DNA of 64,000 nt from an uncultured Pelagibacteraceae bacterium (GTDB lineage: Bacteria > Pseudomonadota > Alphaproteobacteria > Pelagibacterales > Pelagibacteraceae): positions 1 to 64,000 of the forward strand of contig CACHWN010000005.1 of the NCBI GenBank assembly GCA_902583585.1. Reading direction: 5' to 3'. The notes beneath the pieces are model-generated. The model was not told the origin of the DNA. It saw only the letters and a list, made by a program, of their open reading frames with translations, and searched no databases. Below, piece after piece: positions 4,859 to 26,580 of the stretch (positions are counted from its first letter, which is position 1; each line of letters opens with the position of its first letter). Made by a program: the position numbers and the translations under genes.

Positions 4859-5480
4859 TTAAAATCCTATTTTGAATTTTCTTCGCAGAAGAAGAAGTTA
4901 TTAATACATTTTTGAATTTTAATAAATCAAAAATATTTGCACCCTCGTCTTTTATAAGTTTTACATTCTTTATGTTTCTTGCTGATTTATTAATGTTTTT
5001 GAGCGAGTCAGTATCAGAAATTATTAATGTGTTAGATAAATTGTTTTTTAATAAAAATTGATTGAATTCTTTTGTTTTTTTAATCTCCTTTGTAACATCC
5101 GCTAGAATATACAAATTTTTGTCATTATTTTTTTTGGAGAGTGTTTGTGCTAAAGCAAGTTTTTTTACCTTTTTATTAATCTTTTTCACTTTATATTTAT
5201 TTCCTTTTGGTCCGTGAGCAACTCCTCCACCAACAAAGAGTGGTGCTTTTTTACTTGCGTGTCTAGCTCCACCACTTCCTTTTTGGGCAATGATTTTTTT
5301 AGTAGATCCTCTAATTTCATTTCTTTGTTTTGTTTTTGCTATTCTTGGTTTTGCTTGGTTTAATTGCCAATCAATTACAAATTTAATTAACTTATGGTTA
5401 ATTTTTAAATTAATTAATTTGTCAGAAATTTCGATTGAGGAAGATTTAGAGCCATCAATGTTAAGTAAAGGTATTTTCAT
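4845..5480 (-). CDS. rplD: 50S ribosomal protein L4
   Basis: 211 aa. The tunnel-loop segment TKQRNEIRGSTKKIIAQKGSGGARHASKKAP and GGGVAHGPKGNKYKVK identify L4. In enteric bacteria L4 also represses the S10 operon through a leader RNA. No obvious S10-type leader exists here because rpsJ follows fusA with a 3-bp gap, so that control is unlikely in this form (inference). Confidence 0.96.
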   Translation of the reverse strand: MKIPLLNIDGSKSSSIEISDKLINLKINHKLIKFVIDWQLNQAKPRIAKTKQRNEIRGSTKKIIAQKGSGGARHASKKAPLFVGGGVAHGPKGNKYKVKKINKKVKKLALAQTLSKKNNDKNLYILADVTKEIKKTKEFNQFLLKNNLSNTLIISDTDSLKNINKSARNIKNVKLIKDEGANIFDLLKFKNVLITSSSAKKIQNRILNEKN

Positions 5481-23204: not shown

Positions 23205-23972
23205 TTAAGAAGTTTCTTTTATCAATTGTTCTAATTTAATTTTTTTTTGCAAACTTTTATTTTTATCATAAAGAAGATTAAATTTTATTTTATTTTGAAC
23301 TGATATAGTAATTTTTTTGGCGTTTCTTACTTCAATATTATCCGCAACTGCACTAACTGGTCTTTTTAAATAGTTTAAATTTGTAATAATTATTTTTGAC
23401 TTATCACTTACAATTTTTCCACTCCATCTTCTTGGTCTAAATGGGCTAATCGGAGCGACTGATATTTTTTTTGAATTTAAACTTAATATAGGACCGTGGA
23501 CTGATAAGTTGTATGCAGTACTTCCAGCTGGTGTCGAAACAAGAACGCCATCCGCAACTAGTCTTCTCATTAAATAGTTAGATTTATTTTTAATTGATAA
23601 ATTTGCAGCTTGCCTGCTTTGTCTAAGAATTGAGACTTCATTGATAGCTAAAATTTTTCTTGTTTTATTTTTTGTAATCACTTTCATTTCTAAAGGAGAA
23701 ATGTGAATCATTTTCGATTTATCAATATTCTTAATTAATTGTTTTTTGGAGAATTTATTCATAAGGAATCCATAATTACCTGAGTTGATTCCATAAAAGA
23801 GTTTACTTTTTTTTTTATATTTTTTTAATGTTTGGAGCATAAACCCATCTCCGCCTACTACTAAAATAATATTGGGTTTATTTAGTCTACTAAATTTAAA
23901 AATACGGGTTATAATTTTTTTTAATTTTACGGATTTTAAATTTTTATCTGAAATAATTATTGGTTTATACAT
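23205..23972 (-). CDS. nadK: NAD kinase
   Basis: 255 aa. The nucleotide-binding motif VVGGDGFMLQTLK (GGDG) and the conserved DGVLVSTPAGSTAYNLSVHGPIL and SPFRPRRW segments identify NAD kinase. The enzyme phosphorylates NAD to NADP. GGDGFML replaces the common GGDGTML, as in other alphaproteobacterial forms. It lies 9 bp after tRNA-Leu on the same strand, so the two may share a transcript. Confidence 0.93.
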   Translation of the reverse strand: MYKPIIISDKNLKSVKLKKIITRIFKFSRLNKPNIILVVGGDGFMLQTLKKYKKKSKLFYGINSGNYGFLMNKFSKKQLIKNIDKSKMIHISPLEMKVITKNKTRKILAINEVSILRQSRQAANLSIKNKSNYLMRRLVADGVLVSTPAGSTAYNLSVHGPILSLNSKKISVAPISPFRPRRWSGKIVSDKSKIIITNLNYLKRPVSAVADNIEVRNAKKITISVQNKIKFNLLYDKNKSLQKKIKLEQLIKETS

Positions 23973-23981
23973 GTTTTAATT

Positions 23982-24067
23982 TGGTGCCCTCGGCCAGACT
24001 CGAACTGGCACTCCCAAAAGGGCAAGGATTTTAAGTCCTTTGTGTCTACCAATTTCACCACGAGGGC
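23982..24067 (-). tRNA. tRNA-Leu (anticodon TAA), target of duplication
   Basis: 86-nt class II cloverleaf on the minus strand. The acceptor is GCCCTCG/CGAGGGC with discriminator A and encoded CCA. The anticodon stem AAGGA/TCCTT encloses CTTAAAA (TAA), a long variable arm follows, and the T arm is CCAGTTCGAGTCTGG. Its 5' half, from 2 nt before the acceptor to the anticodon loop, is repeated exactly at 25518-25558. If an element inserted here, this gene's promoter-side DNA is element-derived. Confidence 0.95.
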
Positions 24068-24069
24068 AC
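24029..24069. repeat. 41-bp direct repeat, copy 1 (within tRNA-Leu)
   Basis: It covers the anticodon loop through the 5' end of tRNA-Leu plus 2 bp outside it. It is identical over 41 bp to 25518-25558 in the same orientation, 1,489 bp away. On the inner side the match breaks at one base (GGA versus GGG) and then ends. The arrangement is what site-specific integration into a tRNA gene leaves (attL/attR). Confidence 0.93.
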
Positions 24070-24147
24070 GTCGTTATTTTTGTTGTTATTGTTAATATAT
24101 TAATACACAAGTGATTTAAATAAGTAAAAATAATTTATTTTCCGCCT

Positions 24148-24170
24148 CTATCGTCCAGTTTGAGTCCAGT
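24148..24170. repeat. 23-bp terminal repeat of mini-island, left copy
   Basis: CTATCGTCCAGT followed by TTGAGTCCAGT: two GTCCAGT units (24153-24159 and 24164-24170) 11 bp apart. The right copy at 25371-25393 matches at 21 of 23 positions in the same orientation. It lies about 80 bp inside the left 41-bp repeat, on the tRNA side of the protease gene. Confidence 0.85.
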
Positions 24171-24196
24171 CATCATTTATTTTATAGGAATATATT

Positions 24197-25345
24197 TTAA
24201 TTAAATTCACTAAAAAAAGCTTTTCTGGAATTTTGAGCTGCAATTAATTCTTTAACTTTTGCCACGGACATCCAGCATTCTAAATAAACTGTAGCATCTG
24301 TTACAAGTTTTCCAAGTTTTTCATTGTTTAATTCAAAAAATGGTTCACTTGAAAATTTAACTTTATTTCCGCTAGCAAAGATTTTTAAAGTTGATGACTT
24401 AATACCAAAGTTAAAACTTTCTATTCCAGATTTTTTACCATAATGTGAAACTGCTACACCAACAACTCCACCATATTTATTAATTATTGGACCTCCACTA
24501 TTCCCTTTGTTCATTGCTGCATCGGTTTGAAAATTTGATGAATTGTCCTGAAAGCCAACAAGCGCAGTAACACTTCCTTTTGAAGTTTTTATTGCTGAGC
24601 TCACTTTTTTTCCTAACGGGAATCCTGCAATAACTACTTCTTGAAGGAGAGCTACATCTTTTTTAGAAACAGGAAAAAATTGTTTTGGTCTTATATCAGT
24701 TTTTAAAATAGCTAAATCATTTGTTTTATCTTGAGCTACTAATTTTGCCTTATGTTGTTTGTCGTTGTAAGATAATTTAATATCTTTACACCCAGCTATG
24801 ACATGATGATTAGTTATTACATGACCTTGTCGTGTAACAAAAAAACCACTCCCGGATGAAGCAGCAATAATTTTACTATCATCTACAAAAATTTTAGGAG
24901 ATGATCTCTGTTCCTTTTTTCCGGCTGTATTATTGTTACCTAGGTAAGTTGACCATCTTTTTGCTATTGAATTAGTAGATTTATACCTTCGAGTCCATGA
25001 ATTACAATCAGCGTCTGACCGTTGCATTACTCTTCCATTTATTACACCAACAAGGCAATATTTTTTTTTAGGACTAGAAGCATGTAAAATTATTTTTACT
25101 ATTTTGCCCTCTTGTTTCCATGTGCAATCTTTTTCTCTATGAGTATATAAATCCCACCATGATCGCTCACAAAAACCATTGGACATAAATTTCATTGTAA
25201 TAACTCTATGTCCAGCCAACTCGCCGATAAGACCCCCTATTCCCTCGTCTCTCCATTCAGAATTAGTTACATCAATAATTTTTTCAGCATACGAAATACT
25301 GGGTAAAAAAAATATAAAACTCATGATTATTAATAAATTTCTCAT
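24197..25345 (-). CDS. Secreted trypsin-like (S1C/DegP-type) serine protease
   Basis: 382 aa. Residues 1-20 form a signal peptide ending SYA-EK. Residues about 22-140 are a Cys-containing N-terminal region of unknown function (FCERSWWDLYTHREKDC, YCLVGVINGR). A chymotrypsin-fold protease follows with His in VITNHHVIAG, Asp in KTNDLAILKT and Ser in AMNKGNSGGPI. No PDZ domain follows; the ~60-residue tail includes YLECWMSVAKVKELI. It is the only gene between the tRNA-Leu repeats. A periplasmic or outer-surface role is inferred; the substrate is unknown. Confidence 0.85.
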   Translation of the reverse strand: MRNLLIIMSFIFFLPSISYAEKIIDVTNSEWRDEGIGGLIGELAGHRVITMKFMSNGFCERSWWDLYTHREKDCTWKQEGKIVKIILHASSPKKKYCLVGVINGRVMQRSDADCNSWTRRYKSTNSIAKRWSTYLGNNNTAGKKEQRSSPKIFVDDSKIIAASSGSGFFVTRQGHVITNHHVIAGCKDIKLSYNDKQHKAKLVAQDKTNDLAILKTDIRPKQFFPVSKKDVALLQEVVIAGFPLGKKVSSAIKTSKGSVTALVGFQDNSSNFQTDAAMNKGNSGGPIINKYGGVVGVAVSHYGKKSGIESFNFGIKSSTLKIFASGNKVKFSSEPFFELNNEKLGKLVTDATVYLECWMSVAKVKELIAAQNSRKAFFSEFN

Positions 25346-25370
25346 AACTTATCTTATCAAATTTTCCTAC

Positions 25371-25393
25371 CTATCGTCCAGTCTGCGTCCAGT
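25371..25393. repeat. 23-bp terminal repeat of mini-island, right copy
   Basis: CTATCGTCCAGT followed by CTGCGTCCAGT, with GTCCAGT at 25376-25382 and 25387-25393 (11-bp period). It matches the left copy at 24148-24170 in 21 of 23 positions. It lies just upstream of the protease start (25345), so it could instead be a regulator binding site. The presence of a copy at the other end argues for a recombination role. Confidence 0.85.
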
Positions 25394-25468
25394 TTGAACA
25401 AATTAATTATTGTCTAATTCTAATAATAATTGAGTAACAAATTTAAAAGTTAAAATTTTAATTGTTTT

Positions 25469-25494
25469 GAGACTGTATGAGACTAACAGAGACT
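25469..25494. repeat. Three GAGACT repeats with exact 10-bp period
   Basis: GAGACT occurs at 25469-25474, 25479-25484 and 25489-25494, each unit preceded by a similar T/A-G/A context (GTAT, AACA spacers). The array ends 23 bp from the right 41-bp repeat. Exact helical phasing next to an att-like core is typical of arm-type sites for tyrosine recombinases, but it could also be a repressor operator. Confidence 0.8.
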
Positions 25495-25517
25495 ATTGAA
25501 TTTGTGAATCCCTAGGG

Positions 25518-25558
25518 TTTTAAGTCCTTTGTGTCTACCAATTTCACCACGAGGGCAC
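25518..25558 (-). pseudogene. Truncated tRNA-Leu (5' half), direct repeat copy 2
   Basis: On the minus strand positions 25556-25518 reproduce the tRNA-Leu 5' acceptor strand, D arm, and anticodon stem and loop up to TTAAAA, then diverge (CCCTAGGG). No 3' half follows, so no tRNA can form. The fragment is the displaced half expected after integration into the tRNA. The ORF-track start at 25531 is a GTG inside this fragment. Confidence 0.92.
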
Positions 25559-25626: not shown

Positions 25627-26580
25627 ATGAAAAAAATTTTAATATATAATTCTGGTGGAGGATTAGGTGACTCAATACAATTATTTCCATTATTAATAAG
25701 TTTAAAAGGCCATTTTAGAAAATCAAAATTTTATTATTTGGGAGCTCATTCAAATCATTTTGATGGAAAATTAAAAGAATATAACATTAATTTGGAAACA
25801 TTAGATTTAGGGTTAAAATATTTTGGTTTCAGATGGTGGCACATGTTGATGGCAAGAAAAAGAACATCTAATAAATTTTCTGGTAAATTTGATCTAATAA
25901 TTGACTTACAAACCAAGTTTAGAAATTCTCTCATCCTCAAAAGAATACCTCATGAGTCATTTTATTCCAGAACTTTGGGAGGTTTTTTTTCATCAAAAAA
26001 AATACAATCTAGTTCTTTAAATCACTTAGAAAACTTAAGTTTATTTATAGAAGAAGATATAGTTGAATTGGATTTTAAAGTTAATAAATTATCAAAAGAA
26101 ATTTTAAAGGAGGCTAAAAGGCTATTACCTGGCTCAAATTATGTAGGTTTTTCTATCACACAAGGAAATGAATATAGAAAAAAAAGTTGGTCTATTTATA
26201 AATTTACCTCACTTGCTAATAAGATTCTCTCAAAAGATAAAGTTCCAGTTTTTTTTATCGAAAAAAATAAAATTGATTTGATTAATAAAATAAAAAATCA
26301 AGTACCCTCAGCAATATTTCCTGAACTAAACTCAAATTTATCCTGTCCAGCATTAGTAACAGCTCTTTCTGCAAGACTTAACATAGCAGTTTCTATCGAC
26401 AATGGAATTATGCATATGATGTCCTTAGCAAATATACCGATGATAGTTTTATTTGGCCCAACTAATTCGAAAAAATTTGCCCCTAAAAATAATTTTACGA
26501 AAGTCTTAGATAGTAAAATAATTCATAAAACAAAAGATATAAACTCTATTGAGGTTGATGAAGTACTCAGTCTAATTTAA
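25627..26580 (+). CDS. Glycosyltransferase family 9 (heptosyltransferase-like)
   Basis: 317 aa from ATG at 25627; the track's 32 extra N-terminal residues start within the tRNA fragment and are rejected. The N-terminus ILIYNSGGGLGDSIQLFPLL is the GT9 acceptor-domain glycine-rich motif. The C-terminal VSIDNGIMHMMSLANIPMIVLFGPT is the donor-binding D-x-G-x-x-H motif. GT9 enzymes add heptose or related sugars to lipopolysaccharide core in the inner-membrane cytoplasmic face. The exact sugar is not determined. It converges with the next gene, overlapping by 4 nt. Confidence 0.85.
   Translation: MKKILIYNSGGGLGDSIQLFPLLISLKGHFRKSKFYYLGAHSNHFDGKLKEYNINLETLDLGLKYFGFRWWHMLMARKRTSNKFSGKFDLIIDLQTKFRNSLILKRIPHESFYSRTLGGFFSSKKIQSSSLNHLENLSLFIEEDIVELDFKVNKLSKEILKEAKRLLPGSNYVGFSITQGNEYRKKSWSIYKFTSLANKILSKDKVPVFFIEKNKIDLINKIKNQVPSAIFPELNSNLSCPALVTALSARLNIAVSIDNGIMHMMSLANIPMIVLFGPTNSKKFAPKNNFTKVLDSKIIHKTKDINSIEVDEVLSLI

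Follow-up and report, generated by a model that had tools for sequence, protein, structure and literature searches.

A protease cassette in a SAR11 tRNA-Leu gene, probably one of many integrase-less units mobilised in trans

Introduction

How does a DNA unit with a single gene and no recombinase of its own come to lie inside a tRNA gene? We address this question for a 1.5-kb unit at tRNA-Leu(UAA) of an uncultured Pelagibacteraceae bacterium, within a stretch of 64,000 nucleotides (contig CACHWN010000005.1 of assembly GCA_902583585.1, positions 1 to 64,000; hereafter the window). The host lineage, SAR11, comprises the most abundant bacteria in the ocean, whose cells are streamlined. A first-pass annotation, made from the letters of the sequence, had described the unit as an island that was either decayed or mobilised in trans. 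We conclude that it is probably a non-autonomous SAR11 integrative gene cassette, mobilised in trans by satellite-type integrases.

A tRNA island without a recombinase

The unit is bounded by two copies of a 41-bp core corresponding to the 5' half of tRNA-Leu(UAA), at 24029-24069 and 25518-25558. These are identical at 41/41 positions, lie 1,489 bp apart, do not extend further on either side, and are the only two copies in the window genome (G000; 922 kb in 25 contigs, 83% complete). The repeat is thus exactly as first annotated. One copy lies within a complete tRNA gene, while the other is the 5' half only. The features of the locus are as follows.

24029..24069, minus strand: core copy at the tRNA, right attachment junction (41/41 identity)
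25518..25558, minus strand: 5' half of the original tRNA-Leu, now displaced; left attachment junction (41/41 identity)
23982..24067, minus strand: complete, regenerated tRNA-Leu(UAA), a single complete ARAGORN call, its 5' half within the element-side core
24070..24113, minus strand: CTTGTGTATTAATATATTAACAATAAC... block of the right end, lying upstream of the regenerated tRNA; promoter-like and element-supplied (right-end conservation)
24152..24170, minus strand: right-end iteron pair ACTGGACT/ACTGGACG, 11 bp apart (an equivalent pair occurs at both ends of most units)
24197..25345, minus strand: cargo, a 382-aa secreted trypsin-like (Trypsin_2) serine protease (Pfam, 4e-26)
25375..25393, minus strand: iteron pair of the left end, ACTGGACG/ACTGGACG with 11-bp spacing, which matches the right-end pair
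25469..25494, minus strand: triple 6-mer AGTCTC (GAGACT) with a 10-bp period, separated from the left core by 23 nt; putative excisionase or arm sites
23205..23972, minus strand: NAD kinase, chromosomal flank outside the element
25630..26580, plus strand: GT9 glycosyltransferase, chromosomal flank outside the element

The protease gene is the sole long open reading frame (ORF) between the core copies, and its product has the catalytic-type motifs TNHHV, NDLAIL and GNSGGP and a signal-peptide-like N-terminus, in agreement with the single S1C-type protease of the first-pass annotation. The G+C content of the insert (0.31) equals the window average. Two further features had been overlooked, namely a GTCCAGT repeat pair within each end (24153-24170 and 25376-25393) and the triple repeat, a pattern for which 0.00 chance occurrences are expected in the window. 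The right-end block reaches about 1.9 bits per position at most over 24 right ends of the same subtype, and may be the promoter of the regenerated tRNA.

The 1,489-bp unit encodes no integrase, and the Pfam integrase domain PF00589 has zero matches throughout G000 (83% complete), so that not even XerC or XerD was detected. The locus therefore presents attachment-derived repeats at both ends without a recombinase. In terms of a tRNA island it has the fragment repeat at both ends, the regenerated intact tRNA and, as shown below, an empty site in relatives, though not an integrase of its own.

Comparison with congeners, in which the locus was located through GT9 orthologues, supports site-specific insertion. 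When the window flanks are joined at the core, they align through the tRNA and the native upstream DNA with five congeners (G011, G010, G013, G022 and G015), which are empty sites. The window tRNA aligns with these empty-site tRNAs across both halves, and the 110 bp upstream of the displaced half (25518-25558) align with their native upstream DNA. The earlier proposal that an element in tRNA-Leu had supplied a new 5' half and promoter side is accordingly supported. At the same site G006 and G023 carry a different, 5,026-bp insert at exactly the position of the window unit, while G002, G012 and G004 hold one tRNA, preceded by a cassette right end only, which looks like a scar. The first-pass annotation had suggested that a site never found empty, or a 1.49-kb unit with diverged repeats shared by all relatives, would favour an old local duplication of the tRNA half; at least five congeners are empty, and relatives often hold other units. 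We give such a duplication almost no credence, as only the repeat itself speaks for it, and the empty sites and the unrelated units at the same site contradict it.

A population of units with matched ends

The triple AGTCTC at a 10-bp period, seen in both the window insert and the 5,026-bp insert, was used as a probe for the wider family. Among 397 genomes of the order, 20 contain it; the reversed controls yielded none, and every triple inspected lies 23 nt inside a tRNA-Leu core, one such core being partly replaced. Ends of this kind are present in 42 GTDB records, mostly of single-cell genomes and all with Pelagibacteraceae, Pelagibacterales or Pelagibacter in the title, and are confined to Pelagibacteraceae/Pelagibacterales among 84,980 species. 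The core itself is present in 108 of 151 genomes of the genus by census, often in more than one copy.

Regions fetched from Pelagibacteraceae contain 54 core-to-core intervals of 1,002 to 11,831 bp, with up to three in succession. Three of these intervals (L171, L181 and L187) have degenerate cores and no arms, are probably old, and were excluded from the counts of cargo orientation and conservation. Intact units share one anatomy: on one side the core is followed, after 23 nt, by three 6-mers at a 10-bp period, and both ends carry paired 8-mers with a spacing of 11-12 bp. Some have the variant triple AGTCCA or a diverged triple; unit ends are conserved across 100-200 bp, and almost all units lack an integrase.

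The iteron 8-mer differs among units (ACTGGACG in the window; ACTAGAAG, ACTGGTAC, ACCAGCAC, ACTTGTAC and others elsewhere), and the two ends of a unit tend to carry the same one. The inner left copy equals the inner right copy in 37 of 43 deduplicated units, against 5.2 expected and a maximum of 15 over 20,000 shuffles that ignore relatedness between units. Likewise, 13 of the 19 distinct left-right combinations are identical.

The main evidence that integrase-less units move, as judged by sequence, is the apparent transfer of the sister 5,026-bp unit. This unit, itself without an integrase, is 99.94-99.98% identical in G006, G023 and G062, whose flanks on either side are only 79-83% identical, and a near-identical unit amid diverged flanks indicates movement between genomes. 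Every copy continues into flanking DNA of its own, and the G062 copy comes second in an array. Since all three are single-cell assemblies, cross-contamination of this unit should be excluded.

A candidate helper

Scans of viral contigs with the triple, the integrase and the core recovered satellite-like elements (L084, L102, L108/L148 and L149) that encode an integrase of 545-549 aa, a primase-helicase-type protein (AEP-TOTE and DUF5906 in L084) and a RusA-like protein; no capsid or terminase was matched among the L084 proteins scanned. Terminal repeats of 99 bp in L084, 99 bp in L149 and 123 bp in L102 fit circles of about 7.7, 8.9 and 7.8 kb, respectively, and are consistent with circular contigs, with tandem copies possible in principle. 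In G169 an integrase-bearing element lies inside tRNA-Leu(UAA) itself, 7,776 bp from core to core. These elements have the cassette core, and most copies also have the same spacing, triple and iteron pairs.

The residues R373, K400, R485, H508 and Y518, of the catalytic type of tyrosine recombinases, are invariant in all seven integrases. The L084 integrase matches the phage family phrog_1 at 4.3e-20 and scores 23.6 bits against PF00589, under the cut-off of 27.1. The integrase N-terminus, usually the arm-binding part, is the most variable segment among L084, L102 and L149: the first 150 alignment columns are 76% identical between L084 and L102 (remainder 98% and 92%) and 49% identical between L084 and L149 (remainder 87% and 72%). 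The elements L084 and L148 have the iteron ACTAGGGT in common, and their integrase N-termini are 94% identical. Among 297 genomes of the family, an alignment query matched six, three strongly, and the window genome was not one of them; a single-sequence search gave no match in 121 congeners, and back-translated integrase peptides gave no confirmed match in GTDB contigs.

Two arrangements in the integrase-bearing elements may be recorded here. The left iteron pair lies inside the first integrase codons (L084:143-240, and L158), and L160 (G406) holds a diverged integrase element at 561-2252 whose different triple (CACTAC..., 10-bp period) resembles that of the protease unit L250, which suggests a second helper-cassette pair.

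The same 40-bp core also occurs in T7-like, pelagiphage-looking IMG/VR contigs (L194, L196, L197, L199-L202 and L204), between a short ORF and an RNA-polymerase-like ORF, as expected, by position and appearance, of a phage attachment site (attP). The core with a leading G had no match in viral contigs, in which the copies start with A. Pelagiphage integrases could be proposed as the mobilising enzymes instead. In L194, L196, L199-L202 and L204 the core is directly 3' of an ORF of 282-297 aa and 5' of the RNA-polymerase-like ORF, and in L193 a cassette right end meets phage-like genes at the core. However, the triple and the cassette iterons, both present in the satellites, are missing beside the phage core, and the 282-297-aa ORFs are taken to be integrase-like from position, not from a family search. 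We regard mobilisation by pelagiphages as improbable, and slightly less likely than the loss of a resident integrase discussed below.

Two phage-like contigs also end in or abut cassette DNA. At L193:1-173 the core has a cassette right end upstream and phage-like genes directly after, as if a phage had inserted beside a cassette. L198 terminates (4900-5129) in the core and a cassette right end, which has iterons ACCTGTAC; this may reflect either a cassette carried by a phage or chimeric assembly.

Probable mobilisation in trans

A competing account is decay: an element once complete with its integrase lost that gene through a deletion and can no longer move. The window genome, with no detected recombinase, would fit this, as would the right-end-only scars in G002, G012 and G004. 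Yet both ends of the unit are intact and matched, integrase-less units far outnumber integrase-bearing ones, one of them was transferred recently, and the cassette cargo is unlike satellite genes. We therefore consider decay unlikely. Of the two fates left open by the first-pass annotation, mobilisation in trans is favoured over decay by the intact matched ends, the recent transfer of an integrase-less unit and the existence of an integrase element with the same core and arms.

We hypothesize that the unit ends are one attachment site split by integration, consisting of the tRNA-Leu(UAA) 5'-half core and arm sites, with an iteron pair at either end and, at one of them, the triple 6-mer as well. 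A tyrosine integrase of another element would recombine the core in trans, and the cassette would excise as a circle and re-enter tRNA-Leu(UAA), the tRNA gaining a new 5' half and a new promoter with every insertion. The enzyme acting on the cassettes would be the satellite-type integrase, with the iteron pairs as its arm sites, and the triple repeat may be an excisionase-type site.

Several observations weigh against mobilisation in trans as proposed here. With no tyrosine recombinase detectable in the window genome, the unit would be immobile now unless a helper is present. No integrase paired with the window's exact iteron ACTGGACG was found among the elements recovered, nor did any integrase-less unit turn up as an excised circle. 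The integrases of L149 and L158 break the trend in variability (N-terminus 73% identical, middle 47%), for which reason the link between N-terminus and iteron is put forward as a hypothesis, and the integrases are too few to prove co-variation. A structure model of the integrase was unusable (predicted local distance difference test score of 34), and a 97-aa winged-helix candidate excisionase had no PDB fold match below E 0.37, with excisionases among the non-significant weak matches. The relatedness passed over by the shuffle test and the tandem reading of the terminal repeats belong on the same side.

Cargo and insertion at other genes

Cargo is strongly oriented, 87 of 89 distinct cargo ORFs (at least 90 aa) lying on the tRNA strand, and the displaced tRNA promoter is directed towards the cargo, which it may transcribe. 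Many cargo proteins look secreted by a crude signal-peptide rule, and restriction-modification proteins are frequent in the larger units scanned. Gene blocks recur across units in differing combinations. A signal-peptide-coding stretch, MKKLLGIVVLGLLW..., precedes different cargo proteins in L248, L137, L166, L175, L182 and others and is also left over near some right ends, as if cargo had been swapped by recombination there. The cassettes L159 and L164 hold several copies of a pilin-like protein with N-termini FTLIELLVVVAIIGILAAVG.

Homologues of the window protease occupy comparable positions at other genes. Of 21 protease homologue loci, eight lie between direct repeats that overlap a tRNA or transfer-messenger RNA (tmRNA) gene (Leu(UAA) twice, Val, Met, Glu, Gly, and tmRNA twice), compared with none of 27 loci of a DegP-like paralogue. 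A ninth unit, in G037 at tRNA-Leu(UAG) with a spacing of 2,967 bp, is additional to the eight; its short version, L005, was scored negative in the 21-locus count. Left-right repeats of their own are seen by eye in several of these units (e.g. CTGGGCACC in L252), and L250 has a 22-bp repeat with ACTAGAAC pairs at both ends and no tRNA within the stretch.

These data also bear on whether homologous recombination between conserved ends merely exchanges cargo, with no site-specific excision or integration. The ends are conserved over 100-200 bp, long enough for such exchange, and the varying combinations of gene blocks would follow from it. Against this stand the empty sites, the tandem arrays, the exact core boundaries and the protease units at several unrelated tRNA sites, and we judge it very unlikely.

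Beyond the mobilisation in trans of the window unit, a broader possibility, which we hold tentatively and at somewhat less than even chances, is a population-wide, integron-like SAR11 system. Here the element-specific iteron pairs of integrase-less cassettes would serve as matching end tags, read by the variable N-termini of helper integrases on small circular satellites; each insertion would give the tRNA a new promoter and leave the displaced one to drive the cargo, and the design would recur at several other tRNA and tmRNA genes. Should the cassette reading as such be right, SAR11 would have a testable route of gene gain, a compact cassette pool with defined ends and a candidate helper, whose cargo is rich in secreted proteins and restriction-modification systems, and the matched iterons would form a natural series for the evolution of integrase arm-binding specificity.

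Comparison with known systems

Use of the 5' half of tRNA-Leu, which the first-pass annotation rightly recognised but called less common, is standard in T7-like cyanophages that target this gene, their attP matching the first half of tRNA-Leu (PMC8776855). Integration in tRNA-Leu(TAG) is described for pelagiphages and for a freshwater SAR11 phage related to them (PMC6811365). These phages share tRNA-Leu attachment with the cassettes, and the same core is found in pelagiphage-like contigs; unlike the cassettes, these phages carry their own integrase, and no triple or iterons were seen beside their core.

Among cargo elements, tycheposons, described as 4-200 kb with a tyrosine recombinase (PMC10872708), are likewise marine and tRNA-integrated, whereas the window unit measures 1.5 kb, has no tyrosine recombinase and hence falls outside their definition. 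The candidate helper resembles phage satellites (phage-inducible chromosomal islands, PICI; phage-inducible chromosomal minimalist islands, PICMI; virion-encapsidated integrative mobile elements, VEIME) in having an integrase, a primase-helicase and a RusA-like protein, but the window cassette carries a protease only and no recognised replication or packaging gene.

Cis-mobilizable elements (CIMEs) are remnants of conjugative elements. Hitcher elements, such as clusters of attC sites lacking integrases (CALIN) and miniature inverted-repeat transposable elements (MITE), are DNA bounded by recombination sites, without their own recombinase, and moved by a helper's enzyme (PMC11389934). The SAR11 units are like both in being bounded by recombination sites and lacking a recombinase, and differ from CIMEs in forming a standing population in which the arm repeats are element-specific and the cargo is mostly a few genes. 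Arrays, co-oriented cargo, an integrase encoded elsewhere and, by inference, a resident promoter recall integron cassettes and CALIN, from which the units differ in that the attachment core is a tRNA half and the candidate integrase matches phage family phrog_1.

The closest precedents are the cassettes inserted at tRNAs with tell-tale repeats in additive flexible genomic islands, as described for Actinomarinales (PMC7771536), where they have also been transferred between genera, and for Methylophilaceae (PMC10872708). The SAR11 units have conserved arms, end-matched iterons and a candidate helper integrase, none of which appears in the accessible portions of those descriptions. Our literature search, with subscription journals mostly outside its coverage, found no publication naming a SAR11 cassette system. 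Cassettes inserted at tRNAs are thus known already, while the conserved arms, the matched iterons and the candidate helper appear to be new, and the cassettes are apparently a large, undescribed group of tiny SAR11 mobile elements.
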